Source: a virus. From it: a stretch of 61,422 nt of DNA. Under the pieces are notes generated by a model, which saw only the letters and a list, made by a program, of their open reading frames with translations, had not been told where the DNA came from and made no database searches. How positions within the stretch are numbered: the first letter of the stretch is position 1; every line of letters begins with the position of its first letter. Below are positions 18,056-31,201 of the stretch, piece by piece. The DNA is taken from positions 1 to 61,422 of IMG/VR virus record IMGVR_UViG_3300013126_000033; one strand, written 5' to 3'. Both the position numbers and the translations under genes were made by a program.

Positions 18056-19606
18056 ATGAACCCAGATTTTCTGATAAATCAACAAGCTAAACTTGAAGTT
18101 ATCGCTAATGTAGCTGAAGATATTGGTATATGGGATGTTGAATTCTATACTAGATATATTGCTAAAGTTGATTATGAATATTTCAAGGATAGACCTAGAA
18201 AAGCTAAATTAGTTTTAGTTACAGCAATTAATCCTACTCCCGCTGGAGAAGGTAAAACAACTACTACTATTGGTTTATCAGATGCACTATGTGAATTAGG
18301 ACATAAATCTATTGTATGTTTACGTGAACCTGCAATGGGCCCAGTTTTTGGCATCAAAGGTGGAGCAACTGGTGGAGGTTACTCTCAGGTAGCACCTTCA
18401 GATAAAATTAATCTCCACTTTACGGGTGACTTCGCAGCGATAGCGGCCGCTCATAACTTACTAGCAGCTATGGTTGAAAATCATATTTGGCAAGGTAACA
18501 GTCTAAATATTGACAGAGTAACATGGCGCCATGTAATTGATATGAACGACCGCTCGCTGCGTGACAGATTTGATATTGTTGTGGCTTCAGAAGTCATGGC
18601 AATTTTATGTTTAGCAAAAGATTTAGATAATCTTAAATGGCGATTGAGTAAGATTGTTATTGGTACAGATTATGAAGGTAAAGAAGTTACAGCACAAGAT
18701 TTAAAAGCTGTTGGAGCTATGACGGCATTATTAGTTGAAGCATTTAAGCCTAACTTAGTACAAACATTAGAAAACAATCCAGCATTTGTGCATGGTGGTC
18801 CATTTGCTAATATAGCACACGGATGTAATTCAGTTGTATCTACTGATTTGGCTATGAAACTTGGTGATTGGGTAGTTACTGAAGCAGGATTTGCTTCTGA
18901 ATTGGGTGCTGAAAAGTTCTTAAGTATCAAACGTAGAATGTCACAACTTAATCCTGATATTGTAGTTATTGTAGCAACTGTTAGAGCTTTAAGACATCAT
19001 GGTAATGGCAATTTGATGTCGGGGGTTCCTCATCTTGGAGAACATATTAATAATATTAAAGATAATTTTGGGCTTCCTGTAGTTGTATGTATTAATAAAT
19101 TCTCAGATGATCAACAAGCTGAATTAGATATGATCCAAGAATATGCTAAAAAACTAGCAGATGACTGTGTGGTATCAACACATTGGGCTAATGGATCCGA
19201 AGGTGCGCTTGATTTAGCTAATTCAGTGGTTAATACTGTTAAGATACATGGCACGCAGAAACAGCGTTATCTTTATGATCTAAATGATCATTATATTGAA
19301 AAGATTCAAAAGATTTGTACCAAAGTTTATGGCATTAAACAAGTATTGTTTCCATTAAATGTACAACTTAAGTTAAGAGATTGGCAAGAAGCACACCCTG
19401 ATTTACCAGTATGTATTTCTAAAACTCCAAAGAAAATGGATCCATCGGATGATGGTATCATATGGGTTGACGGAGTAGAATTAAAAGCTGGTGCTGGATA
19501 TATTGTAGTTAAACTAGGTAAGGTTATTACATTGCCTGGGTTACCAGAAGAACCTTCGGCAGAATCTATTGATGTTATTGATGGTAAGATTGTAGGGATT
19601 AACTAA
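18056..19606 (+). CDS. fhs: Formate-tetrahydrofolate ligase (formyl-THF synthetase)
   Basis: 516 residues (bacterial enzymes about 555). It makes 10-formyl-THF from formate, ATP and THF. The P-loop TPAGEGKTTT is at residues 61-70 and the folate/formyl-phosphate block EPAMGPVFGIKGGATGGG near 98, followed by INLHFTGDF and AHNLLAA. Where most Fhs have GDFHAI, this protein has GDFAAI, so one conserved His is replaced. It would support purine and thymidylate synthesis with ThyX. I know of no phage family in which fhs is usual, so it looks like an auxiliary metabolic gene. Patches near 18415 and 18530 are GC-rich. Confidence 0.93.
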   Translation: MNPDFLINQQAKLEVIANVAEDIGIWDVEFYTRYIAKVDYEYFKDRPRKAKLVLVTAINPTPAGEGKTTTTIGLSDALCELGHKSIVCLREPAMGPVFGIKGGATGGGYSQVAPSDKINLHFTGDFAAIAAAHNLLAAMVENHIWQGNSLNIDRVTWRHVIDMNDRSLRDRFDIVVASEVMAILCLAKDLDNLKWRLSKIVIGTDYEGKEVTAQDLKAVGAMTALLVEAFKPNLVQTLENNPAFVHGGPFANIAHGCNSVVSTDLAMKLGDWVVTEAGFASELGAEKFLSIKRRMSQLNPDIVVIVATVRALRHHGNGNLMSGVPHLGEHINNIKDNFGLPVVVCINKFSDDQQAELDMIQEYAKKLADDCVVSTHWANGSEGALDLANSVVNTVKIHGTQKQRYLYDLNDHYIEKIQKICTKVYGIKQVLFPLNVQLKLRDWQEAHPDLPVCISKTPKKMDPSDDGIIWVDGVELKAGAGYIVVKLGKVITLPGLPEEPSAESIDVIDGKIVGIN

Positions 19607-20224: not shown

Positions 20225-20301
20225 TGCGGGTTGGGGAAGGGGTCTATCCTGTTAGCCTCATAAGCTGAAGATCGTTGGTTCGAATCCAACACCCGCTACC
20301 A
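20225..20301 (+). tRNA. tRNA with CAT anticodon (Met or lysidine-type Ile)
   Basis: Cloverleaf folds with anticodon loop CTCATAA, T-arm GTTGG/TTCGAAT/CCAAC and encoded CCA. The first acceptor pair is a T-T mismatch, initiator-like, but the anticodon stem lacks the initiator GC triplet. A 14-nt perfect palindrome (20197-20210) lies just upstream. Confidence 0.85.
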
Positions 20302-20302
20302 G

Positions 20303-20409
20303 TTTAAGATAGTAGATTGACAAGAGATTTACCAATACTGTAATATTGGATCCTCAAGTTAACTTACAGGTTGATGCCATATATGGAGCATCCAATCTAC
20401 TATCTTAAA
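20303..20409 (+). ncRNA. Structured element closed by a 17-bp perfect stem
   Basis: The arm 20303-20319 (TTTAAGATAGTAGATTG) pairs perfectly with 20393-20409. The 73-nt interior folds further: CCAATA/TATTGG (near 20331-20348) and GATGC/GCATC (near 20373-20392), giving a multi-branched RNA. It follows a tRNA directly and is tRNA-sized but has no usable anticodon or acceptor end. It could be a processed small RNA, an RNase III site or a degenerate tRNA. Confidence 0.6.
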
Positions 20410-20447
20410 AATATTTTTAAAATAATGTAAAATCATCGGAAATTTTG

Positions 20448-20455
20448 TATAAATA
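20448..20455 (+). promoter_or_regulatory. T4-type late promoter
   Basis: TATAAATA 13 bases before the small gene at 20461. Confidence 0.6.
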
Positions 20456-20460
20456 ATTTT

Positions 20461-20589
20461 ATGACTAAACTAATACAACAACTCGGAACTTGCCACTCGC
20501 AGCTAAGTAATTTAGCGACGATGAATATTGCTCCGCGCAATGAGTTTGTAGGTTCATGGGATTATAAACCAAGGACACGGGTTAGTTAA
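20461..20589 (+). CDS. Small late protein, 42 residues
   Basis: ATG 20461 to TAA 20587-20589 (MTKLIQQLGTCHSQLSNLAT, ending DYKPRTRVS). It forms a complete unit with a late promoter and a strong terminator, which argues that it is real, although no ribosome binding site is obvious. Codon use is more GC-rich than usual here. Function unknown. Confidence 0.5.
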   Translation: MTKLIQQLGTCHSQLSNLATMNIAPRNEFVGSWDYKPRTRVS

Positions 20590-20615
20590 AGTTTAAGTAA
20601 TAAAAGAATTTTACC

Positions 20616-20645
20616 AAACCCGAGATTAAACACCTCGGGTTTTTT
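20616..20645 (+). terminator. Intrinsic terminator
   Basis: AAACCCGAG (20616-20624) pairs with CTCGGGTTT (20634-20642), followed by a T-run. It ends the small late gene and insulates the tRNA operon promoter that follows. Confidence 0.85.
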
Positions 20646-20687
20646 GTTTTAGAAATACAAAAAGTTACAAAATAGTTTTAAAAACAC

Positions 20688-20716
20688 TTTACATTAATTA
20701 ATAATTATGTTATAAT
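20688..20716 (+). promoter_or_regulatory. Sigma70-like early promoter of the tRNA array
   Basis: TTTACA (20688-20693), 17-nt spacer starting TTAATTA, TATAAT (20711-20716). First promoter before tRNA-Glu and the long array. Confidence 0.88.
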
Positions 20717-20778
20717 GACTTTATTAAATTAATTGATGTGTTAAATTAATTGCTCTTTAAAAATTTATATTTTATTAT

Positions 20779-20853
20779 GTTCCGTTCGACTTCAGGTGAG
20801 GTCACTACCCTTTCAAGGTAGCTAGATGGGATCGATACCCATACGGAACACCA
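20779..20853 (+). tRNA. tRNA-Glu (TTC)
   Basis: Acceptor GTTCCGT/ACGGAAC, anticodon stem CTACC/GGTAG with loop CTTTCAA, T-loop ATCGATA, CCA encoded. Its CCA also forms the first bases of the long repeat arm at 20851. Confidence 0.95.
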
Positions 20854-20974
20854 TATTAAAACATATTTGACGGATAGGATATCTGCAATGCGCAGAGTCT
20901 TATTCGGTGAAGCTGACACTTTGCGAAAATCTATGTTGTCAGACATAGAAAATATTGAGTATGTTTTAATATGG
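20851..20974 (+). repeat. Long-helix repeat element, copy 1
   Basis: Arm 20851-20869 (CCATATTAAAACATATTTG) pairs with 20957-20974 (GAGTATGTTTTAATATGG). The 87-nt insert contains hairpins TCTGC/GCAGA (20882-20896) and TCTATGT/ACATAGA (20930-20949). The arms are shared with the copies at 21054 and 21340; the inserts are unrelated. The 3' ATATGGT can instead pair with ACCATAT at 21053-21059, an alternative fold. Confidence 0.65.
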
Positions 20975-21053
20975 TTGAACGGGGTGGTATGTAGGAACGA
21001 ATCGATTAAGTTCTGAGGACCGGGATGGCTCCCCAGCCTAGCAACACTAGGCA

Positions 21054-21140
21054 CCATATAAAAGCACATTGTACTGCACTCGATTTTAGTTGTACGTAGG
21101 ATACACCGAGTGGCAATCCTACCAGTGTGTTTTTATATGG
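21054..21140 (+). repeat. Long-helix repeat element, copy 2
   Basis: Arm 21054-21071 (CCATATAAAAGCACATTG) pairs with 21123-21140 (CAGTGTGTTTTTATATGG). The 51-nt insert contains a 7-bp hairpin GTAGGAT/ATCCTAC (21096-21122) next to the 3' arm, in the position of a T-arm, but without a T-loop sequence. Too short for a full cloverleaf. Confidence 0.65.
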
Positions 21141-21339
21141 TAAAAGTTAGTAAGACTATGGTGCCTGGTCTAGACCACCAGGAGTGTTCGCCTAAACCTT
21201 ATTGCTTTACTGCTTGGTCGGCAGAACCATATATGGTAGTGTAATGGCAAAAGTGTGGATTAATTACCCACGTTAGTAGCGACCTGGAAGCGGATGGACG
21301 GACGTGACTGTAGGCCATCAAGGTAGTCAACATTACAGA
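21141..21339 (+). other. Structured spacer between repeat copies 2 and 3, no gene seen
   Basis: About 200 nt without a credible protein or canonical tRNA. It contains the palindrome ACCATATATGGT (21226-21237), which repeats the helix-arm ends, a CCTGGT/ACCAGG hairpin near 21164 with a 7-nt loop, and TGTAATG (near 21239) pairing with CATTACA (near 21331). The sequence is dense in stems and could hold one or two noncanonical tRNA-like units. Confidence 0.45.
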
Positions 21340-21468
21340 CCATATAAAAACACATTGGGTGCGTGGGAATTGGGTATACCGCGACGGCTGGACTGGAGGC
21401 TTAAACCAGTTGAAATAAACCGTAGCAATGTCTAGGTTCGAATCCTAGTCTAGTGTGTTTCTATATGG
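21340..21468 (+). repeat. Long-helix repeat element, copy 3 (encloses a tRNA-like domain)
   Basis: Arm 21340-21357 (CCATATAAAAACACATTG) pairs with 21451-21468 (TAGTGTGTTTCTATATGG) with one mismatch and wobble pairs. The insert is the tRNA-like element at 21353-21456. Confidence 0.65.
21353..21456 (+). ncRNA. tRNA-like element with Leu-type D-arm and enlarged anticodon arm
   Basis: Acceptor CATTGGG/TCTAGTG (four Watson-Crick and three GU pairs), D-stem CGTGG/CCGCG with the Leu-like loop GAATTGGGTATA, and a textbook T-arm CTAGG/TTCGAAT/CCTAG. Between them the anticodon arm is about 26 nt too long: ACGG (21384) pairs with CCGT (21420) and inside it CTGG/CCAG holds a 14-nt loop (21392-21405). 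No CCA is encoded. Either an unusual tRNA with an insert or a tRNA mimic. Confidence 0.55.
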
Positions 21469-21558
21469 TAGTAACTATATCGAGGAGACTTCTTAGGGTT
21501 CAATTCCCATTAGCTGATCCCTACGATGGTTCGGAGGTTTCCGTGATATAGTTATTAT
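21469..21558 (+). other. Structured spacer with T-arm-like hairpin, no gene seen
   Basis: TAACTATATC (21472-21481) pairs with GATATAGTTA (21545-21554). Inside lies GGG/TTCAATT/CCC (21496-21508), a T-loop consensus in a hairpin, but it is not followed by an acceptor strand. I could not fold a linear or permuted tRNA from it. Confidence 0.4.
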
Positions 21559-21642
21559 GCGTGGTAGGTCATAATGGTATGACACCTGACTGTAAATCAG
21601 ACGCCCCTGGCATAGTAGGTTCGATCCCTACACCACGCACCA
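21559..21642 (+). tRNA. tRNA-Tyr (GTA)
   Basis: Acceptor GCGTGGT/ACCACGC, anticodon GTA, long variable arm, T-loop TTCGATC, CCA encoded. Confidence 0.95.
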
Positions 21643-21648
21643 AGTATT

Positions 21649-21750
21649 TGCGGAGTTTGGTACTAATCTAGGCTGCAGCCATAATCCTTGCTAATCGCGG
21701 TTAGTGACAGATTATGAAAACTAGATGACAAGGTTCAATTCCTTACCGCA
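21649..21750 (+). ncRNA. tRNA-like element with a hairpin insert in the anticodon arm
   Basis: TGCGG (21649) pairs with CCGCA (21746-21750); a mini D-arm AGT/TTGGT/ACT follows; the T-arm has the consensus loop TTCAATT (21734-21740). The middle is about 40 nt too long: ATCTAG (21666-21671) pairs with CTAGAT (21721-21726), and within it CATAATC (21680-21686) pairs with GATTATG (21710-21716) around a 23-nt loop that begins CTTGCTA, which would present TGC (Ala), an anticodon missing from the canonical set. Assignment is speculative. Confidence 0.5.
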
Positions 21751-21760
21751 TCTTATTTTT

Positions 21761-21883
21761 AAGACTGAAGCATTCTGACGTGATGCTAGGGAATAAGGAT
21801 AATAGATACCTCGAGCGATTTCTATTATAGATAAACCCGACTTGTAGATCAAGTGAAGTTTGGTGCGAGTCCAAACCAGTTTT
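21761..21883 (+). ncRNA. tRNA-like element with an 8-bp hairpin in the anticodon position
   Basis: D-arm-like AGCAT/ATGCT (21769-21787), then ATAATAGA (21799-21806) pairing with TCTATTAT (21821-21828) around a 14-nt loop, a variable-arm hairpin ACTTG/CAAGT (21840-21854) and a T-arm TTTGG/TGCGAGT/CCAAA (21859-21875). The acceptor is weak (AAGACTG with CAGTTT). Order and arm types match a class II tRNA with an enlarged anticodon arm. Confidence 0.45.
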
Positions 21884-21889
21884 AGTTTT

Positions 21890-21965
21890 AGGAGTATAGT
21901 ATAACGACTTATTACATCTGGCTTTTAACCAGTCTATCAGGGTTTGATTCCCTGTGCTCCTACCA
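21890..21965 (+). tRNA. tRNA-Lys (TTT)
   Basis: Acceptor AGGAGTA/TGCTCCT, anticodon loop CTTTTAA, T-loop TTTGATT, CCA encoded. Confidence 0.93.
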
Positions 21966-21973
21966 AGTTTTAT

Positions 21974-22048
21974 AGCGGTTAAATCGAATGGCTCAGATAC
22001 TACTCTTTGAAAGTAGGTAAGATGGATCGTAACCATCAACCGCTGCCA
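21974..22048 (+). tRNA. tRNA-Gln (TTG)
   Basis: Acceptor AGCGGTT/AACCGCT, anticodon loop CTTTGAA, T-arm GATGG/ATCGTAA/CCATC, CCA encoded. Confidence 0.95.
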
Positions 22049-22058
22049 AGTTTTAAAT

Positions 22059-22149
22059 GGAAGGTGATGTAACCGGGGATGTTACGGCTGTTTTGAAAGC
22101 AGCGCGAGCCTGAAAAGGCCAGGAGTTCGATTCTGCCCTCCTTCCGCCA
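22059..22149 (+). tRNA. tRNA-Ser (TGA)
   Basis: Anticodon loop TTTGAAA, class II variable arm GCCT/AGGC, acceptor GGAAGG/CCTTCC. The D-stem is unusually long (GTAAC/GTTAC) and the T-stem has a bulge. CCA encoded. Confidence 0.88.
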
Positions 22150-22266
22150 GTTTTATGTATCTTATAGTTTACAAACTATATGTTTTGTATATTATAAGAA
22201 ACAGTTTGAGAGAAACCTGTAACATTATGTATTCGAGGTTAGGAGAGTACAGGAAACCGCTCAATT
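22150..22266 (+). other. Structured spacer of tRNA size, no gene seen
   Basis: Contains ATAGTTT/AAACTAT (near 22165), TCTTATA/TATAAGA (near 22160-22200), CAG-TTT/AAAC-CTG (near 22204) and CCTGTA/TACAGG (near 22217-22254). No cloverleaf could be drawn. Neighbouring canonical tRNAs are spaced only 5-10 nt apart, so this 117-nt gap stands out. Confidence 0.4.
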
Positions 22267-22356
22267 GGAAGTTTATCTAGTCTGGGAAACTAGCGAAGTT
22301 TGCTAAACTTTAGGAGCCTATAAGGGCCGAGGGTTCGATTCCCTAAACTTCCGCCA
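22267..22356 (+). tRNA. tRNA-Ser (GCT)
   Basis: Acceptor GGAAGTT/AACTTCC, D-stem CTAG/CTAG, anticodon loop TTGCTAA, class II variable arm, T-loop TTCGATT, CCA encoded. Confidence 0.93.
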
Positions 22357-22361
22357 GATTT

Positions 22362-22438
22362 GCCCTTGTGATGGAATTGGGATACATGTTAGTCTTAGAA
22401 ACTAAATTTTGCGGGTTCGACTCCCGCTGAGGGCACCA
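22362..22438 (+). tRNA. tRNA-Leu (TAG) with short variable loop
   Basis: Anticodon loop CTTAGAA in stem TTAGT/ACTAA, Leu-type D-loop (GAATTGGGATA), T-arm GCGGG/TTCGACT/CCCGC, CCA encoded. The variable loop is only about five bases, whereas bacterial tRNA-Leu is class II. Confidence 0.88.
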
Positions 22439-22512
22439 GAGCAAACATCATAGGATACTATGGTCAACGGTTGTAAGTGACGATGGGTGATATCGGAACT
22501 TTCAAGAACAAT
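22439..22512 (+). other. Structured spacer, no gene seen
   Basis: CATAG/CTATG hairpin near 22450 and GTCA/TGAC near 22464. No cloverleaf found. Confidence 0.35.
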
Positions 22513-22590
22513 TGTGGTAGAGCAAGCAAGGTGTAAGCGACTGACTGTTAATCAGTATAGAGCTAGGTTCGATTCCTAGTACCACAGCCA
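22513..22590 (+). tRNA. tRNA-Asn (GTT)
   Basis: Acceptor TGTGGTA/TACCACA, anticodon loop CTGTTAA in CTGA/TCAG, T-loop TTCGATT, CCA encoded. Confidence 0.93.
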
Positions 22591-22595
22591 GAATA

Positions 22596-22667
22596 CTCTC
22601 AGTGGGCCAGAGGTTGGTCACTACGTTTGGGGCGTAGACGATGTAGGTTCGAGTCCTACCTGAGAGA
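22596..22667 (+). tRNA. tRNA-Pro (TGG)
   Basis: Acceptor CTCTCAG/CTGAGAG, anticodon loop TTTGGGG in CTACG/CGTAG, T-arm GTAGG/TTCGAGT/CCTAC. CCA is not encoded. Confidence 0.93.
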
Positions 22668-22705
22668 CATTTAGTTCGAGTTTGAAAAAGTATATTGAAG
22701 AATAT

Positions 22706-22779
22706 AGTTCATTAGCTCAAAAGTAGAGCATACGACTGATAATCGTAAGACATAGGAGCATTACCTATATGAACTACCA
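22706..22779 (+). tRNA. tRNA-Ile (GAT)
   Basis: Acceptor AGTTCAT/ATGAACT, D-arm GCTC/GAGC, anticodon loop CTGATAA, T-arm ATAGG/CCTAT, CCA encoded. Confidence 0.94.
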
Positions 22780-22784
22780 GTTTT

Positions 22785-22859
22785 GCCCTTGAAACATAAA
22801 CAGTGATGTGCCTGCCTTGTAAGCAGGATAACCCGGCGCAAGTCCGGGCAAGGGCTCCA
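22785..22859 (+). tRNA. tRNA-Thr (TGT)
   Basis: Acceptor GCCCTTG/CAAGGGC, anticodon loop CTTGTAA in CCTGC/GCAGG, T-arm CCCGG/CGCAAGT/CCGGG, CCA encoded. Confidence 0.94.
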
Positions 22860-22867
22860 GTTTAAAT

Positions 22868-22940
22868 GCCTCGTTGATATAGTGGTTTATTATGTCCGCC
22901 TGTCTAGTGGAACAGAGGAGTTCGATTCTCCTACGAGGCG
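22868..22940 (+). tRNA. tRNA-Asp (GTC)
   Basis: Acceptor GCCTCGT/ACGAGGC, anticodon loop CTGTCTA, T-loop TTCGATT. CCA not encoded (CCC follows). Confidence 0.92.
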
Positions 22941-22970
22941 CCCTTGAGTTGATGTCAAGACTCGAACTTT

Positions 22971-22978
22971 TATAAATA
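22971..22978 (+). promoter_or_regulatory. T4-type late promoter
   Basis: TATAAATA 20 bases before the GIY-YIG gene at 22998, inside the early tRNA array. Confidence 0.7.
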
Positions 22979-22997
22979 GAGTATATAGGAGAAAACT

Positions 22998-23624
22998 ATG
23001 TACTTTACAATTTATAAAATAACAAACAAGATTGATGGCAAATTCTATATTGGAAGCCATAAGACCAAAGATCTTGATGACAATTATATAGGTTCAGGTA
23101 AATATCTGAAATATGCTCAAGAAAAATATGGATTAGAATATTTTGAAAAAGAAATTCTACACGTATTTCAAACACCTGAAGAAATGTATGCTAAAGAAGC
23201 TGAAATAGTTAATGAAGATTTTTTAGCATCAGCAAATACGTATAACTTAAAAATAGGTGGATTTGGTGGATGGGATTATTTAAATGAAACTGGTTTAAAT
23301 AATTCAACTAAGTCAAAAGAACAATTGCAACGAGGTGGATTTAAGAATAAAGGTAAAGAGAATCCATTTGCATCTAGACAAATGAAACAAAAACATTTAG
23401 ATGGAAAAATTAAGTATAATACATTTACAGGTAAAACACATACAGATGAAACTAAACAAAAAATCGGTGAAAAGAATTCTATAAATCAATCTGGTGAAAA
23501 AAATTCACAGTATGGTACTATGTGGATTAATAATGGTTTAGTGAATAAAAAGATTAAAAAAGAAGATATTATTCCAGATGGTTGGAATAAAGGTAGAAAG
23601 ATAAAACAAGTTATACCCTCTTAG
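22998..23624 (+). CDS. GIY-YIG homing endonuclease in the tRNA array
   Basis: 208 residues. GIY-YIG core at the N-terminus (IYKITNKIDGKFYIG), catalytic Glu region KEAEIVNE, NTYNLKIGGFGG, then NUMOD-like DNA-binding segments (GKTHTDETKQKIGEKNS, MWINNGLVNKKIKK). AGGAG precedes the ATG. It is inserted between tRNA-Asp and tRNA-Arg and uses a late promoter. Its last 10 bases, including the TAG stop (23622-23624), lie inside the tRNA-Arg gene, so the tRNA supplies the stop codon. Confidence 0.9.
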   Translation: MYFTIYKITNKIDGKFYIGSHKTKDLDDNYIGSGKYLKYAQEKYGLEYFEKEILHVFQTPEEMYAKEAEIVNEDFLASANTYNLKIGGFGGWDYLNETGLNNSTKSKEQLQRGGFKNKGKENPFASRQMKQKHLDGKIKYNTFTGKTHTDETKQKIGEKNSINQSGEKNSQYGTMWINNGLVNKKIKKEDIIPDGWNKGRKIKQVIPS

Positions 23625-23691
23625 CACAATGGATTAGTGCAACGGTCTACGAAGCCGTAGGTTGTAGGTTCAAGTCCTACAGAGGGTGCCA
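23615..23691 (+). tRNA. tRNA-Arg (ACG)
   Basis: Acceptor ACCCTCT/AGAGGGT, anticodon loop CTACGAA, T-loop TTCAAGT, CCA encoded. Decoding all CGN-box codons it serves would need A34 deamination by host TadA. The 5' end overlaps the nuclease gene by 10 nt. Confidence 0.94.
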
Positions 23692-23696
23692 GTTAT

Positions 23697-23772
23697 ACTC
23701 GGTTAGCTCAGCGGTAGCAGCAGCGCCCTTACAAGGCGAAGGTCGTAAGTTCAATCCTTACACCGAGTACCA
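23697..23772 (+). tRNA. tRNA-Val (TAC)
   Basis: Acceptor ACTCGGT/ACCGAGT, anticodon loop CTTACAA, T-loop TTCAATC, CCA encoded. Confidence 0.94.
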
Positions 23773-23778
23773 TATAAT

Positions 23779-23854
23779 GGATCTCAGACCAATCTGGTGA
23801 TGGTGCAAGTCTGAAAAGCTTGAAAGCTCGGATCGAAACCGAGGGGATCCACCA
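23779..23854 (+). tRNA. tRNA-Phe (GAA)
   Basis: Acceptor GGATCTC/GGGATCC, D-stem ACCA/TGGT, anticodon loop CTGAAAA in CAAGT/GCTTG, T-arm CTCGG/ATCGAAA/CCGAG, CCA encoded. Confidence 0.93.
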
Positions 23855-23864
23855 AAAATATTTG

Positions 23865-23893
23865 TTTACATTAATTAAATCTTATGATATAAT
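23865..23893 (+). promoter_or_regulatory. Sigma70-like early promoter
   Basis: TTTACA (23865-23870), 17-nt spacer starting TTAATTA, TGA then TATAAT (23888-23893). Confidence 0.87.
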
Positions 23894-23923
23894 GTACTTA
23901 TAAATTGATAAAGGAATTATAAT

Positions 23924-24250
23924 ATGTTTTTACATATCATCAAAACAATTCTGGTGGTAATTTTGCAGTAGGTGATTCAGTGGCTCATACTGTTATTATT
24001 GAAGCAAAAACTGCAGAACAAGCAGATGATAAAGCACAAGAAATTGGTATCTATTTTAATGGTTGTGAAGAAGAAATAGATTGTCCTTGTTGTGGTGATC
24101 GTTGGACTACTGCCTGTGAGGGCACCGCAACCCCCATTAATTTATAGTACCCCAGCTGAAGAATATTACGAAAATTGGGGAAAAATTGGTGAAGTTTATT
24201 GCTATATCTATATGGCAGATGGAACTGTTAAAAAATTAATTAAAGAATGA
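23924..24250 (+). pseudogene. Conserved T4-like small protein gene with two compensating single-base indels
   Basis: From ATG 23924 the frame starts MFLHIIKT and then hits a stop; the neighbouring frame continues as NSGGNFAVGDSVAHTVIIEA with CPCCGDRW, and the last part returns to the first frame as YSTPAEEYYENWGKIGEVYC to TGA 24248-24250. Adding one A near 23946 and removing one C from the C-run near 24131-24135 restores one 109-codon gene. I recall this family intact in T4-like phages. Either a decayed gene or two homopolymer sequencing errors. AAAGGAA precedes the start, under an early promoter. Confidence 0.7.
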
Positions 24251-24555
24251 AATACAAATACGGCGGAAAGATATTCGTAGTTACTGGTAATAAAGCAGAG
24301 TTTATGGTATATAGAAATAAAACTCTTAAGGAAGTTGCCAACTATGGTGAACATTATAGGATTAGTGATATAATTTATGTTGCTCAACCTATAACTTTAA
24401 AAGGTTGTAGAGATGTTCATGGTGTATTTTATGGTAACTGGAAACAACATCCATACATTATAGATATTATACATCAAATAGTTATTTGTAATTCTGCAAC
24501 ACCAACAAATTTACCAGATTGTATTAGAAATTTTTATTTAGAGAATATAAAATGA
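24247..24555 (+). CDS. Hypothetical protein, 102 residues
   Basis: Start overlaps the previous stop (ATGA). Tyr-rich, basic, no signal peptide; the middle (ITLKGCRDVHGVFYGNWK) may be beta. No family recognised. In the early operon begun at 23924. Confidence 0.6.
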   Translation: MKYKYGGKIFVVTGNKAEFMVYRNKTLKEVANYGEHYRISDIIYVAQPITLKGCRDVHGVFYGNWKQHPYIIDIIHQIVICNSATPTNLPDCIRNFYLENIK

Positions 24556-24722
24556 CACAAATATATAAAGTGATTAAAGAAAATGATATGATCACATTCC
24601 AACGAGAGGTAAATAGTTATCTTTCAGCTGGATGGAGACTTAATGGCGGAATGACTGTAACAATACAACATACAACAGCAATGTATTATCAATCTTTATA
24701 TAAAGAAGTGTCAAATGATTAA
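24552..24722 (+). CDS. Small DUF1737-like protein
   Basis: 56 residues from ATG 24552 overlapping the previous stop. The pattern FQREVNSYLSAGWRLNGGM resembles the short DUF1737 fold (helix, GW, GG). Function unknown. Overlaps the next gene by 8 nt. Confidence 0.6.
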   Translation: MTQIYKVIKENDMITFQREVNSYLSAGWRLNGGMTVTIQHTTAMYYQSLYKEVSND

Positions 24723-25137
24723 AAGAAATCAATTAGGAGTTATTTTTAATGTTTACCAAGGAAAACATAGAAAGGTGCTTACTGTGTGTAGCGCTGGTTG
24801 TCTTCGTAGTCCTACCGCTGCTCATATCCTTAGTTCCGAACCTTGGAACTTTAATACTAGATGTGCGGGAACCAGTGAGGAATATGCTATTGTTCCAGTA
24901 ACAGAAGCACTAGTTGCATGGGCAGATGTTATTCTAGTGATGGATCAGTTTCAATGGAAATACATTATGGATATGCAGAATAAGATGTTCAATGAAACTC
25001 AATTAGGTATGCATGAGTTTGAATTTACACCAATCCATAATTTAGAAATTGAAGATGAATTCAGTTACAGAGATCCTAAATTAGTTGAAATTATGACAGA
25101 GAAATTTAAGGAATTATTTCCTATAGATAAGGAATAG
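24715..25137 (+). CDS. Low-molecular-weight protein tyrosine phosphatase-like protein
   Basis: 140 residues. The P-loop VCSAGCLRS (C25 to R31, C-x5-R) and a late RDP (general acid) match the LMW phosphatase/arsenate reductase fold. Reduced length and substitutions between these motifs make the substrate uncertain. Early operon position suggests action on a host phosphoprotein or phosphometabolite, which is inference. Confidence 0.75.
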   Translation: MIKRNQLGVIFNVYQGKHRKVLTVCSAGCLRSPTAAHILSSEPWNFNTRCAGTSEEYAIVPVTEALVAWADVILVMDQFQWKYIMDMQNKMFNETQLGMHEFEFTPIHNLEIEDEFSYRDPKLVEIMTEKFKELFPIDKE

Positions 25138-25140
25138 ATT

Positions 25141-25350
25141 ATGACTGAATTTGTAGATGTTAAATGGTATTGTGCTGGTCACGGTAATGTAGGCATCGTA
25201 AAAGTAAATGACAATTATGATGGAATCAAATACTACATTGGTTCTTTTCCTGGTGAAGAAAAAGGGCACAATGAGGAAGAAGACATCCAATGGATCATGG
25301 ATTGGGGTTCAACATTCCCAAAAGAAGCAGGTGATTTATTATTTGGATAG
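25141..25350 (+). CDS. Conserved small T4-like phage protein ending inside a tRNA gene
   Basis: 69 residues (VDVKWYCAGHGNVGIVKV, then an acidic EEEDIQWIMDW). I recall the KWYCAG...NVGIV start in T4-like phages. AAGGAA lies upstream. The last two codons, including TAG at 25348-25350, lie in the first six bases of tRNA-Cys. Function unknown. Confidence 0.7.
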   Translation: MTEFVDVKWYCAGHGNVGIVKVNDNYDGIKYYIGSFPGEEKGHNEEEDIQWIMDWGSTFPKEAGDLLFG

Positions 25351-25422
25351 ATGCCCGAGAGGCCTAAGGGAACTGATTGCAAACCAGTAAGATCGTCGGT
25401 TCGAATCCGACTCTATCCTCCA
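25345..25422 (+). tRNA. tRNA-Cys (GCA)
   Basis: Acceptor GGATAGA/TCTATCC, anticodon loop TTGCAAA, T-arm GTCGG/TTCGAAT/CCGAC, CCA encoded. D-arm (GCCCGAGAGGCCTAAGGGA) is Ser-like. Overlaps the preceding CDS by 6 nt. Confidence 0.92.
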
Positions 25423-25468
25423 GTTTTATTCCGGGTAAGTGTTACGGTAGCACAGAAGTTTCACATTT

Positions 25469-25476
25469 TATAAATA
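25469..25476 (+). promoter_or_regulatory. T4-type late promoter
   Basis: TATAAATA 19 bases before the GIY-YIG gene at 25495; AGGAGG ribosome binding site follows. Confidence 0.7.
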
Positions 25477-25494
25477 TAAGTAGGAGGATCAAAA

Positions 25495-26112
25495 ATGATT
25501 TACTACTTATATAAAATAACAAACTTAGTGAATGATAAGATTTACATAGGTGTCCATAAAACTAAAGATTTGAATGATGGATATATGGGATCTGGAAAAG
25601 TTATTAAAGATGCTATTAAAAAGTATGGCAATGATAACTTTAAAAAGGAAATATTAGAATTTTTTGATAATCAAGATCAAATGTTTCTAAGAGAAAAAGA
25701 AGTAGTCAATGAGGAATTTATTCTTAGAGAAGATACTTATAATCTTAGACGAGGAGGTTTTGGTGGATTTGATTATCTAAATTCTAAAAAAACTTTTGAA
25801 GATAGAAGTAAAATGGGCAAAAGATGCCATGAGCTTCATCCAGATTTAGCTATGAAAAATTTATCTAAAGGGTGGACAAAGGAAGCTCATATTAAAGGTG
25901 CTTCTACAATGAAACAAAAATATGGTGAAGATTATTACCAAAAAATTGGTGGAATATTAAAACCAAAATCTGAAGACCATAAGAAACAAATTAGTGAATC
26001 TTTAAAAGGATTTAAACAAAAGCAAGTTGAATGTCCTCATTGCGGTAAAGTAGGTGGAGAAAATGCAATGAATAGACATCACTTTAATAAGTGTAAGAAT
26101 ATTACCCGTTAG
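25495..26112 (+). CDS. GIY-YIG homing endonuclease with C-terminal zinc finger
   Basis: 205 residues. N-terminal GIY-YIG core (LYKITNLVNDKIYIGVHKT), Glu in LREKEVVNE, DTYNLRRGGFGGFDY. The C-terminus is a zinc finger (VECPHCGKVGGENAMNRHHF then C). Paralogous to the nuclease at 22998 over the first 100 residues, with a different DNA-binding end. Inserted between tRNA-Cys and tRNA-Trp; its TAG stop (26110-26112) lies inside tRNA-Trp, an overlap of 10 nt. Confidence 0.9.
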   Translation: MIYYLYKITNLVNDKIYIGVHKTKDLNDGYMGSGKVIKDAIKKYGNDNFKKEILEFFDNQDQMFLREKEVVNEEFILREDTYNLRRGGFGGFDYLNSKKTFEDRSKMGKRCHELHPDLAMKNLSKGWTKEAHIKGASTMKQKYGEDYYQKIGGILKPKSEDHKKQISESLKGFKQKQVECPHCGKVGGENAMNRHHFNKCKNITR

Positions 26113-26178
26113 TTTAAGTTGGTAAAACGAGAGTCTCCAAAACTTTAGTCGGCGGATCGTCACCGTCACGGGTAGCCA
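26103..26178 (+). tRNA. tRNA-Trp (CCA)
   Basis: Acceptor TACCCGT/ACGGGTA, anticodon loop CTCCAAA in AGAGT/ACTTT, T-arm GGCGG/ATCGTCA/CCGTC, CCA encoded. 5' end overlaps the nuclease gene. Confidence 0.93.
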
Positions 26179-26282
26179 GAATTTACAGGGGTAGGCGCTT
26201 ATGCCTGTAGACGTTGTATGGGAATATGAGTACGTGAAGCTCATATACGTTGCAATCCGAGAAGGGGGAGCGCATCATCAAT
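26179..26282 (+). other. Structured spacer of tRNA size, no gene seen
   Basis: TACAGG/CCTGTA (near 26187-26213) and ATATGAG/CTCATAT (near 26224-26247, extended by GTAT/ATAC across a GGGA bulge) form two strong hairpins. No cloverleaf or protein is visible in these 104 nt. Confidence 0.4.
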
Positions 26283-26358
26283 GGTGATATTAATGTAGTG
26301 GTTAGCATATTAGGCTGTGAACCTTATAGGACGAGTTCGAATCTCGTATATCACCCCA
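26283..26358 (+). tRNA. tRNA-His (GTG)
   Basis: Encodes the extra G at -1 (26283) opposite C73, acceptor GTGATAT/ATATCAC, anticodon loop CTGTGAA, T-loop TTCGAAT, CCA encoded. Confidence 0.94.
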
Positions 26359-26372
26359 ATTAAGGATATATT

Positions 26373-26555
26373 ATGATTATTAATGAAACCCATAAAGAAG
26401 ATTGCACGTGCAGTTATTGCTATGGATATAGTAAACTGCATTATGGTTTAAATGTTCCAAGACGATGGAAAGAATTTAATTCTTGGTATGTGATTAAATA
26501 CTGGAAACGGTCTTACTTTAAATGGACCAATACTTGGTTGAGGTATTTTAAATGA
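26373..26555 (+). CDS. Small Tyr/Trp-rich protein
   Basis: 60 residues; AAGGA precedes the ATG. CTCSYC near residue 11 could bind zinc; the C-terminal half is rich in Trp, Tyr and Lys. Overlaps the next ATG (ATGA). No family recognised. Confidence 0.55.
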   Translation: MIINETHKEDCTCSYCYGYSKLHYGLNVPRRWKEFNSWYVIKYWKRSYFKWTNTWLRYFK

Positions 26556-26965
26556 AATTTCATAAAGATGGTAGCAGACCTTTATTTGGTCATATATTTG
26601 TGTTCGGTTCTAATCTAGCTGCTATTCATGTCGCTGGCGCTGCATTGGCAGCAAAAATGTATTATGGTGCATCTTATGATGTTCCATCTGGACCATGTAA
26701 CCACAGTTATGCCATACCAACAAAAGACATGGAATTTGAATGTTTATCTTTAGATAAGATTAATCAATTTGTTATACATTTCGTTAACTACACTCAGCTG
26801 CATCCAACTAAACAATTCTTTGTCACTAGAGTTGGTTGTGGTTTAGCAGGTAATAGAGATGAAGACATAGCACCTATGTTCAGAGGATGTGGTGATAATT
26901 GCAGTTTCGCTGAAGAATGGCGAGAGTATTTAGAAGATAAACCTGTAGAGAATAGATTATATTAA
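26552..26965 (+). CDS. Macro-domain-like protein (A1S_2505-type phage family)
   Basis: 137 residues. The motifs IFVFGSNLAAIHVAGAALAA, HSYAIPTKDMEF and VTRVGCGLAGNRDEDIAPMF match, from memory, a small macro-like family scattered in phages and bacteria. Macro folds bind or cleave ADP-ribose adducts, so a role in countering ADP-ribosylation or NAD-based defence is conceivable, but activity is not shown. In most members the first motif is GSNLAGRHGAGAA; here AAIHVAGAA. Confidence 0.65.
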   Translation: MKFHKDGSRPLFGHIFVFGSNLAAIHVAGAALAAKMYYGASYDVPSGPCNHSYAIPTKDMEFECLSLDKINQFVIHFVNYTQLHPTKQFFVTRVGCGLAGNRDEDIAPMFRGCGDNCSFAEEWREYLEDKPVENRLY

Positions 26966-27178
26966 ATGAAGTCTCTTCCAGGAAATATAGGTAACGTAAA
27001 AATGAATGGCAAGAAACATAAACTGTTATCTTGTGGATGTTGTGAGTGTCAAGACTTCAGAGACAAATACAACATGGAATTAATGAGAAAAGATATTGAA
27101 AGTTATAATTCTCTAGACACTAAAGAGCAAGTCGAAGAATTATACAAAGAAGAAACTGGTAATGTAGGACAATGGTAG
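26966..27178 (+). CDS. Small Cys-rich phage protein ending inside a tRNA gene
   Basis: 70 residues with CGCCECQDFRDKY near residue 23, a compact metal-binding-like cluster. It starts directly at the previous stop. The last 21 bases (coding GNVGQW and TAG) lie within tRNA-Met at 27158, so the protein tail is dictated by tRNA sequence. Function unknown. Confidence 0.6.
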   Translation: MKSLPGNIGNVKMNGKKHKLLSCGCCECQDFRDKYNMELMRKDIESYNSLDTKEQVEELYKEETGNVGQW

Positions 27179-27232
27179 TCCACCACCCTCATAAGGTGTT
27201 TGTTAGTGGTTCAAGTCCACTCATTACCACCA
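27158..27232 (+). tRNA. tRNA-Met (CAT)
   Basis: Acceptor GGTAATG/CATTACC, anticodon loop CTCATAA in CACC/GGTG, T-loop TTCAAGT, CCA encoded. The acceptor starts with a normal G-C pair. Overlaps the preceding CDS by 21 nt. Confidence 0.93.
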
Positions 27233-27234
27233 AC

Positions 27235-27325
27235 ACTCCTGTAGTTTAATGGTAAAACGGCGGATTTATATCCGTAAGCAACAGATAATTGGTTCATCTG
27301 AGTTCGAATCTCAGCAGGAGTACCA
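27235..27325 (+). tRNA. Class II-like tRNA with abnormal anticodon loop (specificity unclear)
   Basis: Acceptor ACTCCTG/CAGGAGT, D-arm GTTT/AAAC, T-arm CTGAG/TTCGAAT/CTCAG and CCA are normal. The anticodon stem pairs best as GCGGA/TCCGT or CGGAT/ATCCG, leaving a loop of six (TTTATA) or four bases rather than seven, and about 22 nt follow before the T-arm. No anticodon can be assigned safely (TTA or TAT are candidates). Confidence 0.75.
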
Positions 27326-27331
27326 ATGATT

Positions 27332-27370
27332 TATTAATGTTACATTACATAAACATATGTAACATTAATA
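27332..27370 (+). other. 14-bp perfect hairpin between tRNAs
   Basis: TATTAATGTTACAT (27332-27345) pairs with 27357-27370 around an 11-nt loop, seven bases before tRNA-Leu. No T-tract, so a processing signal is more likely than a terminator. Confidence 0.55.
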
Positions 27371-27377
27371 TTACAAT

Positions 27378-27466
27378 GCAGGTGTGGTGGAATTGGTATA
27401 CACAACAGACTTAAAATCTGTCGGGAATAAAGTCCCATGAGGGTTCAAGTCCCTCTTCCTGCACCA
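27378..27466 (+). tRNA. tRNA-Leu (TAA)
   Basis: Class II with variable arm GGGA/TCCC, anticodon loop CTTAAAA, D-loop GAATTGGTATA, T-arm GAGGG/TTCAAGT/CCCTC, CCA encoded. One acceptor mismatch (T6-T67). Confidence 0.93.
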
Positions 27467-27474
27467 AATAATTG

Positions 27475-27503
27475 TTTACTTTAATTAATATATGTGTTAT
27501 AAT
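27475..27503 (+). promoter_or_regulatory. Sigma70-like early promoter
   Basis: TTTACT (27475-27480), 17-nt spacer starting TTAATTA, TGTGT then TATAAT (27498-27503). Confidence 0.85.
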
Positions 27504-27527
27504 GTACATATAAATTAAAGGAATAAT

Positions 27528-27743
27528 ATGTCTTTAGAAGTTATTAAAGAAGTTACAGTGTGGAAAGTTGATTTTCGTCAACCAAATCACATATATCTAA
27601 TGGAAGGTTCTAGACCCATAGCATATCAAAAATGGGGTGAAGGTGATCCAATTTATTATAGTAATAAACAAAAATTAGATAAACGTTATCGTAAATTTAT
27701 TACTATACCATTAAAGGATAGTGTGTTTAAGGATATATCATGA
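27528..27743 (+). CDS. Small conserved phage protein
   Basis: 71 residues (VTVWKVDFRQPNHIYLMEGS, then PIAYQKWGEGDPIYY), probably beta-rich. AAAGGAA precedes the ATG and the early promoter is 25 bases upstream. Overlaps the next start (ATGA). Function unknown. Confidence 0.65.
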   Translation: MSLEVIKEVTVWKVDFRQPNHIYLMEGSRPIAYQKWGEGDPIYYSNKQKLDKRYRKFITIPLKDSVFKDIS

Positions 27744-28018
27744 GTAAATATTTTGAATTAAAACGCCTTTCTTGGGGTGATGATTTAGATGGATTAACAT
27801 TAGAAAAGGCTAAAGACTATATTGATGGTCTAATTGCAACATTTAATTCCGATGCTAAATTAGTAATAGAATATGAATGGGAAGGTGTTAATTTTCTTAT
27901 TGAAGTAGAACGTGAAGCAACATTAGAAGAAAAAGAAGCAGATAGAATTAAGAAAGAAAAGAAAGAAAAAGCTGACCGGGTTAAATTTGATAAACTAAAA
28001 GCTGAATACGGTTGGTAA
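27740..28018 (+). CDS. Small charged protein
   Basis: 92 residues: a mixed N-terminal domain (SWGDDLDGLTLEKAKDYIDG, IEYEWEGVNFLIEV) and a highly charged C-terminal helix. Translationally coupled to the preceding gene. No family recognised. Confidence 0.6.
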   Translation: MSKYFELKRLSWGDDLDGLTLEKAKDYIDGLIATFNSDAKLVIEYEWEGVNFLIEVEREATLEEKEADRIKKEKKEKADRVKFDKLKAEYGW

Positions 28019-28046
28019 TAAATAGAAATTATTAACAGAGGTTATC

Positions 28047-28610
28047 ATGGAACTAAGAATTCTTGGACTAGATATATCAGGACAACCCTTTAAGTGGTTG
28101 ACAGCTGAAGAAGCCGTACATTACTATGCATCAAATAAAGTAGTGTGGGATCTAGGTGAAGACTTACAAACGTTCCATGGTGGCTTTCAAAACAGTGGCG
28201 AACAATCTACTATTGCGGTTAAACCTATCATTGCTGTAAAAGGTGAAACTAAAAGATCGTACGAAAGAGCTACTATCAATACACATGGTAACTACTTGTT
28301 ATTCCGTAGAGATCATCATCTATGTGCATACTGTGGGTCAGAATATGCTCCATCAGAATTAACTAGAGACCATGTTCATCCAAGAAGTCGTGGTGGTTCT
28401 AATGATTGGGTTAACTCAGTAACTGCATGTAAAACATGTAATATGAGAAAAGCTAATAAAACACCAGAAGAAGCTGATATGCATCTATTGTTTGTACCAT
28501 ACAGACCATGTAGATGGGAACACTTTATTCTACAGAATAGAAATGTTATAGCTGACCAAATGGAATACCTTAAAGCTAAGCTTCCAAAATACTCTAGGTA
28601 TGCTGCATAA
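28047..28610 (+). CDS. HNH nuclease with four-cysteine zinc site (McrA-like)
   Basis: 187 residues. CAYCGSEY (near 92), RDHVHPRSRGGSND (near 109), TACKTCNMRKANKTP (near 128) form a classic Cys4-type HNH motif. The N-terminal 70 residues are family-specific. It could be a homing nuclease, but it lacks the C-terminal modules of the others and resembles HNH proteins of phages and cyanobacteria that may act in DNA repair or degradation. Preceded by AATAAATA at about 28017, a weak late-promoter-like word. Confidence 0.8.
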   Translation: MELRILGLDISGQPFKWLTAEEAVHYYASNKVVWDLGEDLQTFHGGFQNSGEQSTIAVKPIIAVKGETKRSYERATINTHGNYLLFRRDHHLCAYCGSEYAPSELTRDHVHPRSRGGSNDWVNSVTACKTCNMRKANKTPEEADMHLLFVPYRPCRWEHFILQNRNVIADQMEYLKAKLPKYSRYAA

Positions 28611-28630
28611 GAATTGTTAAATTTTTGTTA

Positions 28631-28672
28631 AAAATCTCTTTTAGTTATTAAATATTTAATAAAGGAGATTTT
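28631..28672 (+). promoter_or_regulatory. Hairpin that would sequester a ribosome binding site
   Basis: AAAATCTC (28631-28638) pairs with GAGATTTT (28665-28672); inside, TTATTAAA (28645-28652) pairs with TTTAATAA (28655-28662). The AAAGGAG site (28661-28667) of the peptide gene at 28675 is buried in the stem, so translation may need unfolding. Confidence 0.5.
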
Positions 28673-28674
28673 TA

Positions 28675-28746
28675 ATGATACTAACAGAACTTTGGTTTTT
28701 CCAACTAATAGGTAGTTTAATATTAATTTGGGCTATATTAATTTAA
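28675..28746 (+). CDS. 23-residue membrane peptide
   Basis: ATG 28675 with AAAGGAG upstream; nearly all hydrophobic (FFQLIGSLILIWAILI), one membrane span. Its stop abuts the next early promoter. Too small for a family assignment. Confidence 0.5.
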   Translation: MILTELWFFQLIGSLILIWAILI

Positions 28747-28749
28747 TTG

Positions 28750-28778
28750 TTTACATTAATTAAAACTTGTGGTATAAT
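28750..28778 (+). promoter_or_regulatory. Sigma70-like early promoter
   Basis: TTTACA (28750-28755), 17-nt spacer starting TTAATTA, TGTGG then TATAAT (28773-28778). Confidence 0.87.
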
Positions 28779-28805
28779 GACTTTATTAAATCAATAAGGG
28801 TTGTT

Positions 28806-29288
28806 ATGTATAAGTGTAAAGAACATGCAATTGCTACAGAAATTATAGTTAAATACCATAAAAGATATAAAAGAAATAATTATAAGAAAAAAGATATTAT
28901 TTCTAATTATATGGATTTTAAAGTTGAAAGGTTAGTTGAAGAATCACTGGCCAATGTTGGTGGGTATGAATGGGTTGATAAGGCTCACTTTGACTTTTCT
29001 GATTTAAGTGATAGTAAAACTGCTAGTATATCTATCAACCCTTCAAAAGCTGGTAGTAGTTATTGTGGTGAAATCACTAATGTTAGTGGTAAAATGGGTG
29101 CTTTAAGAGTAGTTATTTGGAACCCACATAAAGCAGAATTACTTTATTACTTTTTACCAAAATCATTTTGGGAAAATAATGTTACTCGTACTGCCAAAGG
29201 TTTTGGGAAAATCACATTTACTTATAATGTGAATAAAGGTATTATATCTAGGTTTAATGAATATAGAGTTAAGAATTTTTACAATTAG
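28806..29288 (+). CDS. Hypothetical protein, 160 residues
   Basis: Start at ATG 28806 with AAGGG upstream; the longer frame from 28767 would begin in the promoter. Basic N-terminus (KYHKRYKRNNYKKK) and a mixed alpha/beta body with several Trp and Gly residues. No recognised motif or homologue. First gene of an early transcript. Confidence 0.6.
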   Translation: MYKCKEHAIATEIIVKYHKRYKRNNYKKKDIISNYMDFKVERLVEESLANVGGYEWVDKAHFDFSDLSDSKTASISINPSKAGSSYCGEITNVSGKMGALRVVIWNPHKAELLYYFLPKSFWENNVTRTAKGFGKITFTYNVNKGIISRFNEYRVKNFYN

Positions 29289-29300
29289 CTAGGGCATAAT

Positions 29301-29438
29301 ATGTCAGAACAAATGATTAAATCTAATATCAAGTATTATAAAGCATTACAAGATAAGTATGCTAAACTTTATAAAGATGCTTTAGATAAAGAAATTCAAT
29401 TATTAATTGAATTATCTAAAAATAATATTGTACATTAA
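29301..29438 (+). CDS. Small helical protein, 45 residues
   Basis: ATG 29301 after AGGGC; Lys- and Leu-rich, probably one long helix (KALQDKYAKLYKDALDKEIQ). Overlaps the next promoter's -35. Function unknown. Confidence 0.55.
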   Translation: MSEQMIKSNIKYYKALQDKYAKLYKDALDKEIQLLIELSKNNIVH

Positions 29439-29457
29439 TTATAGTTTGTGTTATAAT
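29429..29457 (+). promoter_or_regulatory. Sigma70-like promoter for tRNA-Arg and RNA ligase
   Basis: TGTACA (29429-29434), 17-nt spacer starting TTAATTA, TGTGT then TATAAT (29452-29457). tRNA-Arg begins 21 bases later. Confidence 0.82.
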
Positions 29458-29477
29458 TACATTAAGTTAAAAATTAC

Positions 29478-29554
29478 GTCCTGATAGCTCAATTGGATAG
29501 AGCCACGGATTTCTACTCCGTAGGTTGGGGGTTCGACTCCCTCTCGGGACACCA
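29478..29554 (+). tRNA. tRNA-Arg (TCT)
   Basis: Acceptor GTCCTGA/TCGGGAC, anticodon loop TTTCTAC in ACGGA/TCCGT, T-loop TTCGACT, CCA encoded. Cotranscribed with the RNA ligase gene just downstream. Confidence 0.94.
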
Positions 29555-29572
29555 TATTATGGGAGTGTTATT

Positions 29573-30076
29573 ATGACTATTGAATTTAAAGCATGGCCAA
29601 AAATTCCAAGACTGTATAATGAGAAGATCTTTATCACAGAAAAGATTGATGGTACTAATGCTTGTATCATAATTGATGAAGAAGGTAACTTTGGATGTCA
29701 ATCTCGCTCTAGGATTATCACCCCAGATGACGATAACTACGGATTTGCTCGATGGGCATATGATAATAAAGAAGATCTAATGAAACTGGGACATGGTCAT
29801 CACTACGGTGAATGGTGGGGTCTTGGAATTCAACGTAATTATGATATGAAAGAAAAGCGATTTAGTCTGTTTAATACTGCTCGTTGGAACACAGAAGGTC
29901 AAGTTAAACCAGATTGTTGTCATGTAGTTCCAATGATTGAAGGTACGATCGAAGAAGCATTGGAAACATTAAAGACAAAAGGTTCTTTTGCATCTCCTGG
30001 ATTTATGAGAGTTGAAGGTATTATCGTTTATAACAGTTTAGCTAAAAGTTATTATAAAGTAATTATTGACAAGTGA
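29573..30076 (+). CDS. RNA ligase (covalent nucleotidyltransferase superfamily)
   Basis: 167 residues from ATG 29573 (MTIEFKAWPKIPRL); longer frames start inside the tRNA. The nucleotidyl-lysine motif KIDG is at residues 24-27 (ITEKIDGTNA). Motif III-like YGEWWGLGIQ, motif IV VEGIIVY and a terminal Lys-containing motif V (YYKVIIDK) complete the set. It is short compared with T4 Rnl2 (334), essentially only the catalytic domain. Placement directly behind a tRNA gene in a tRNA-rich region suggests repair or maturation of cleaved tRNAs. Confidence 0.85.
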   Translation: MTIEFKAWPKIPRLYNEKIFITEKIDGTNACIIIDEEGNFGCQSRSRIITPDDDNYGFARWAYDNKEDLMKLGHGHHYGEWWGLGIQRNYDMKEKRFSLFNTARWNTEGQVKPDCCHVVPMIEGTIEEALETLKTKGSFASPGFMRVEGIIVYNSLAKSYYKVIIDK

Positions 30077-30085
30077 GGTATAATT

Positions 30086-30840: not shown

Positions 30841-30935
30841 GTTTTTCTGGTAGGTTTACTTATAAAATCTACCCAGATGAAGGAAAGAAAAAGGAAAGAG
30901 CATCTATCGATGATATGGAACCTAGTTCCTATTAC
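30840..30935 (+). pseudogene. Possible 3' remnant of a phage gene
   Basis: A frame without a start codon encodes SFSGRFTYKIYPDEGKKK and ends RASIDDMEPSSYYR before TGA (30933-30935). It reads like the C-terminus of a real protein but nothing precedes it in frame. It lies in the 281-nt gap between the helical protein and tRNA-Gly, whose remainder (to 31121) shows only an AACGT/ACGTT hairpin near 30966. Confidence 0.35.
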
Positions 30936-31195: not shown

Positions 31196-31201
31196 AACAT
31201 T

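Follow-up and report, generated by a model that had tools for sequence, protein, structure and literature searches.

Clamped units with exchangeable cores between phage tRNA genes appear to form a widespread and previously undescribed class of modular RNAs

What fills a 705-nt gap between two consecutively called tRNA genes in a phage tRNA array? The question is raised by a 61.4-kb virus record (IMG/VR IMGVR_UViG_3300013126_000033; 61,422 nucleotides, analysed in full and referred to here as the window), which is T4-like as judged from its baseplate genes. The tRNA array spans 20225 to 31278 in the window (ARAGORN) and within it tRNA-Glu, ending at 20853, is separated from tRNA-Tyr, starting at 21559, by exactly the 705 nt reported in an initial annotation of this DNA; the gap as a whole has a folding z of -6.0. 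It holds three units, each closed by a helix of 18 paired positions (the clamp) that encloses an insert, or core, unrelated to the other two. Comparison with other viral arrays shows that each such unit is a constant 18-bp clamp, usually starting from the preceding CCA of a tRNA or tRNA-like module, combined with a variable core; together the units seem to represent a type of modular phage RNA that is widespread and has not been described before. The features of the gap and its borders are as follows.

20779–20853, + strand: tRNA-Glu(UUC) (ARAGORN; Rfam tRNA), whose 3′ CCA (20851–20853) doubles as the clamp start of unit 1
20851–20974, + strand: unit 1; arms 20851–20868 and 20957–20974, insert 88 nt, fold z = -8.06
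20975–21053, + strand: linker between units 1 and 2; a terminal hairpin, then ACCA where unit 2 begins; no significant fold on its own
21054–21140, + strand: unit 2; arms 21054–21071 and 21123–21140, insert 51 nt, fold z = -4.99
21240–21337, + strand: module with a 7-bp closing stem (TGTAATG/CATTACA), then GACCA; homologue in locus L077
21340–21468, + strand: unit 3; arms 21340–21357 and 21451–21468, insert 93 nt, fold z = -3.25
21469–21558, + strand: separate long hairpin (21469–21557) with arms unrelated to the clamp, filling the gap to tRNA-Tyr; z = -6.0
21559–21642, + strand: tRNA-Tyr(GUA), downstream border of the gap (ARAGORN)

The initial annotation had placed the three arm pairs correctly and had given the right lengths for the second and third inserts (51 and 93 nt), although its figure of 87 nt for the first is one short; it had overlooked the use of the tRNA-Glu CCA as the start of unit 1, and the fourth hairpin (21469–21557). 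The arm pattern occurs 11 times in the window against a mean of 3.6 and a maximum of 9 in 100 shuffles. All three units have a long helix that starts from the CCA ending a tRNA or tRNA-like module and closes with UGG: unit 1 sits directly on tRNA-Glu, and units 2 and 3 sit on the ACCA that ends tRNA-like modules. The arms of unit 1 (CCATATTAAAACATATTT/GAGTATGTTTTAATATGG) are the most diverged of the three, with changes from the consensus that are mostly paired, and its insert is without a relative among 263 others. Unit 3 has an A.C mismatch at pair 8 and a T-arm-like hairpin in its insert; the segment comprising this hairpin and the arm is common to loci L188, L077, L157 and L023. L077 is the closest relative of the window block: clamped units alternate with tRNA-like linkers and carry different inserts, and a module homologous to 21240–21337 lies at the equivalent place (88% over 59 nt). 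Linkers resembling 20975–21053 adjoin 3′ arms in L071 and L021. The suggestion that neighbouring units offer mutually exclusive folds is possible for the window, where the 3′ arm closing unit 2 is 95% complementary over 20 nt to the 5′ arm opening unit 3 and pairs with it in the centroid fold; it is not a conserved feature of the class, because many arrays hold a single unit.

Searching with the arms alone, a check proposed in the initial annotation, identified the element in approximately 180 fetched viral loci on contigs of up to 525 kb, essentially all of them large phage tRNA arrays. The exact 20-mer pattern CACCATATAAAANCACATTG was present on 19 viral contigs, all 19 with a tRNA array and all 19 with a matching 3′ arm downstream. 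The exact 18-mer gave 106 matches in the fetched loci, 100 of them ≤ 2 kb from a tRNA; the remaining six had no partner arm, as would be the case for chance matches. For 18-mer matches in tRNA orientation a downstream partner was found in 83/91, compared with 5/91 in a mirror control, and elements were always in the orientation of the tRNAs except for near-perfect palindromes, which are exempt because palindromes have no orientation. When viral loci were picked by tRNA pattern instead of by arm (38 loci with at least six tRNAs), five helices were found on 356 CCA ends (0/356 after shuffling); the element is therefore confined to a minority of tRNA arrays, and most tRNA gaps in arrays lack one. 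A screen of 84,980 genomes of bacteria and archaea yielded five exact arm matches, none near a tRNA and hence attributable to chance. Named phages and plasmids gave no match to the arms alone, nor to several of the cores, so that the exact clamp type has been seen to date only in metagenomic phages.

The consensus clamp is CCATATAAAAACACATTN/NAGTGTGTTTCTATATGG, with 18 pairs. In 108/167 non-redundant elements the last three bases of a called tRNA, its CCA, form the start of the 5′ arm and pair with the UGG at the far end; the base following this UGG is a U opposite A73 in 101/142 elements. At the other border, a downstream tRNA starts within the UGG end in 46 elements (offset -1 or -2) because that tRNA begins with G or GG. 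Two positions depart consistently from Watson–Crick pairing: pair 16 is U.G in 102/142 elements, and pair 8 is an A.C mismatch in 98/142 and almost never G.U (G.T in 1/142), possibly as a determinant for a protein or for cleavage. Tandem elements also exist, and in elements without a preceding tRNA the CCA/TGG ends are often exchanged for CTA/TAG, TTA/TAA, CTT/AAG or GCA/TGC.

Compensatory changes in relatives, which the initial annotation had named as a check, proved abundant: across 79 distinct arm pairs, 15/18 clamp pairs have changed on both sides. The covariation score was 0.357, whereas shuffles scored 0.144 ± 0.008 and slid partners no more than 0.117. Counted alike on the tRNA strand, and leaving out pairs 8, 16 and 18, G.U exceeded A.C by 27 to 10. 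Judged from these substitutions, selection acting on the tRNA-sense strand preserves the clamp as a paired helix.

By comparison with the clamp, the cores are extremely diverse. Approximately 141 insert sequence families were distinguished among 263 elements, 99 of them represented by one sequence each, with lengths mostly of 27–150 nt (inserts of up to 320 nt were searched). Two families that were searched by core alone in viral contigs were found only inside clamps in tRNA arrays, following different tRNAs and with arms that differ but still pair. Family F3 shows an invariant 34-nt core in 13 distinct elements, whose clamp pairs and outer helix vary in a compensatory manner; a three-way junction is predicted for this family. 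At equivalent sites in closely related arrays the cores differ or the element is missing. Thus L043 and L080 carry unrelated inserts at one site between flanks of 97% identity over 297 nt and 100% over 74 nt, as do L034 and L120 (flanks 99% and 100%), whereas in L199, by comparison with L168 and L043, the site is empty and both tRNAs are adjacent with few bases between them (CCAGTTTATGG). The proposal of a duplicating scaffold with conserved arms and changing cargo is strongly supported by the number of families on one clamp, by the tandem copies and by the differing inserts of relatives.

The helix is associated with particular tRNAs. In the fetched loci 301 helices were found on CCA ends, compared with four in shuffled controls. 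A helix (score ≥ 11) was present on the CCA of 71% of tRNA-Lys(UUU), 45% of tRNA-Glu(UUC), 26% of tRNA-Gln(UUG) and 26% of tRNA-Lys(CUU), then 13% of Leu(UAG), 10% of Ala and ≤ 7% of all others; these rates come from loci chosen by arm, which inflates the overall rate, although arm choice alone does not explain the contrast between isotypes. When distinct inserts were counted, which partly offsets array kinship, the upstream tRNA was Lys for 57, Gln for 13, Glu for 10 and Leu for 10 of 108. The discriminator base was rejected as the cause of the bias, as Lys, Leu, Ala and Met all mostly have A73. In bacteria, tRNA-Lys, -Glu and -Gln share 2-thiouridine chemistry at the wobble base. At least four families of larger RNAs are also closed by a CCA-to-UGG helix, mostly after tRNA-Glu, and have conserved internal sequence; examples are in L094, L015 and L181 (~150 nt), L138 and L111 (~124 nt), L117 and L120 (~230–270 nt), and L112, L043 and L066 (~235 nt).

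Non-tRNA RNAs in phage tRNA clusters are an already known phenomenon, and the units were compared with the described examples. Of the 4227 Rfam families, tRNAs alone reached the gathering cut-off, both for the window and for 14 loci that bear elements, and nothing relevant was matched in the three units up to E = 10. T4 rnaC and rnaD (species 1 and 2) are likewise small non-tRNA RNAs lying directly behind a tRNA, and one carries a T-arm-like hairpin as the unit 3 insert does; however, the T4 sequence and fold show no helix from the tRNA CCA and no common clamp, and there is no family of interchangeable inserts. GOLLD and ROOL, both structured and non-coding, lie within phage tRNA arrays or close to them (PMC12286853); unlike the units they are hundreds of nucleotides long, have a single conserved structure and form cages, and the GOLLD (RF02032) and ROOL covariance models had no match in the units. 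GOLLD RNA (RF02032) was itself present in three element-bearing arrays (L007, 311–775; L160, 7933–8393, with a tRNA match within it; L166, 2699–3162). A further counterpart occurs in Aeh1-like Aeromonas phages, where an unannotated 139-nt element follows a tRNA-like sequence and, as in the class, has an 18-bp clamp that begins on the CCA; in Aeh1 itself (L210) it lies at about 6430–6568. This element is present in 12 phage records (10 isolates), and in ZPAH1 its core is kept while the arms are different but still pair; it differs from the class in having a clamp sequence not of the CCATATAAAAACACATTG type and a single core family. CRISPR (clustered regularly interspaced short palindromic repeats) arrays and integron attC sites also combine a constant part with variable cargo, whereas the constant arms of the clamped units are inverted, enclose one insert, form a conserved RNA helix and lie between tRNAs. 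The literature searched on structured RNAs in phage tRNA arrays (GOLLD/ROOL work and T4-related reviews; subscription papers lay outside the search) does not describe the clamp, and we rate one clamp with very many exchangeable cores bounded by tRNA ends as a new architecture.

Which function would account for such an architecture? The reading we prefer, at about even confidence, is that the units are modular small-RNA cassettes of phage tRNA arrays that act as RNA, the clamp serving for release and the core as effector. The cassette would be co-transcribed within the tRNA precursor, where the clamp would mark and protect the RNA and provide a cleavage substrate: the clamp would be cut as a double strand in the manner of RNase III, while the borders with the tRNAs would be processed by RNase P and 3′ trimming. 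A single cut could then both mature the preceding tRNA and free a stable core-bearing hairpin RNA. Cores might be decoys or inhibitors of host RNases or of tRNA-targeting defences, or might tune the supply of tRNA-Lys, -Glu and -Gln; their fast replacement suggests an arms race. More tentatively, the clamp may be a standard RNA scaffold on which many small effector RNAs, acting in counter-defence as decoys or inhibitors, are mounted, swapped and expressed, launched from the CCA of tRNA-Lys, -Glu or -Gln with maturation and release coupled. Several observations count against the cassette reading. RNase III needs little sequence and so does not account for the conserved clamp sequence (AAACACATT), nor does it explain the conserved A.C mismatch at pair 8; the Lys/Glu/Gln bias is unexplained by a general processing role; around one-third of elements are not directly behind a called tRNA; no core matches a known inhibitor; and most elements of the covariation set had been preselected for pairing at 16/18 positions, a requirement that inflates the percentage paired.

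The main rival, which we consider rather unlikely, assigns the clamp a role in regulating or disguising the tRNA that precedes it: pairing of CCA with UGG would mask the 3′ end, mainly of tRNA-Lys, -Glu and -Gln, and the insert would be mostly spacer. RNase P or 3′ trimming and charging would then be delayed, or the uncharged tRNAs would act as decoys for anticodon or CCA-tail nucleases, and host nucleases with tRNA-Lys or the CCA tail as their target have been described (PMC11555353, PMC12851939). Masking is consistent with the frequent inclusion of the CCA in the helix, with the predominance of Lys, Gln and Glu upstream and their high helix rates, and with the unrelated larger RNAs that likewise start on the CCA of tRNA-Glu. 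It does not account for elements that are in tandem or have no tRNA in front, and the two insert families that keep invariant cores while their arms change indicate that the insert matters.

It is considerably less likely that the units, here those with inserts of up to 320 nt, are mobile or recombination cassettes at the DNA level, in which the inserts travel as passengers between arms that serve as terminal inverted repeats or as hairpin sites for recombination. Near-identical inverted arms around unrelated inserts, empty sites and swaps at one site are what such a cassette would leave, yet the strand orientation fixed with the tRNAs, the tolerance of G.U over A.C on the tRNA strand and the arms that change in compensating pairs around a constant insert (F3) argue against it, as does the finding that the opening three bases of the arm accord with the tRNA in front. 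We regard as very doubtful that these long stable hairpins between tRNAs are spacers that separate tRNAs or block exonucleases or read-through without sequence-specific function, since conservation of the clamp sequence over many arrays and the strictly conserved cores exceed what a spacer needs and most gaps do without the element; a terminator reading was rejected, there being no T run behind the 3′ arm. Degenerate tRNA genes with acceptor stems overgrown by a repeat, a reading close to the initial annotation's tRNA-carrying module (which was not borne out), would fit the T-arm-like hairpin that lies beside the 3′ arm in unit 3 and at several other loci and could explain where some inserts came from, but are highly improbable for the class and were rejected for it, as only 15/208 distinct inserts have the T-arm motif, other cores are conserved non-tRNA structures, and neither ARAGORN nor the Rfam tRNA model, the latter even at E = 10 for unit 3, matched any unit, so that a tRNA-caller check suggested at the outset returned no ordinary tRNAs in them.

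Other features of the window array and its surroundings were recorded. A perfect 17-bp inverted repeat enclosing 73 nt lies right after tRNA-Met (20303–20409), a further structured spacer in the array; more uncalled stretches bearing T-arm-like motifs lie between tRNA-Tyr and tRNA-Lys (21643–21889); and Ser(UGA)-like and Thr(UGU)-like tRNA genes at 22059–22145 and 22785–22856 have Rfam matches and were missed by ARAGORN. The array also contains two homing endonuclease genes (22998–23624 and 25495–26112; PHROG 314). Immediately upstream of it is a formate-tetrahydrofolate ligase gene (18056–19606; Pfam FTHFS, E 5e-193), whose protein retrieved no related loci when used as query, and at 8710–9798 there is a ribonucleotide reductase fragment with an N-terminal part that is intein-like (under Pfam's intein cut-off).

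Ever since T4, phage tRNA clusters have been known to encode stable RNAs other than tRNAs, and these still await an explanation. The shared and easily searched clamp described here unites more than 100 unrelated cores across many large phages, in strong association with three tRNA isotypes (Lys, Glu and Gln), and supplies exact borders, comparative structure and natural swap experiments. With the Aeh1-like Aeromonas phages as an isolate-based model, the function of these RNAs is directly testable.
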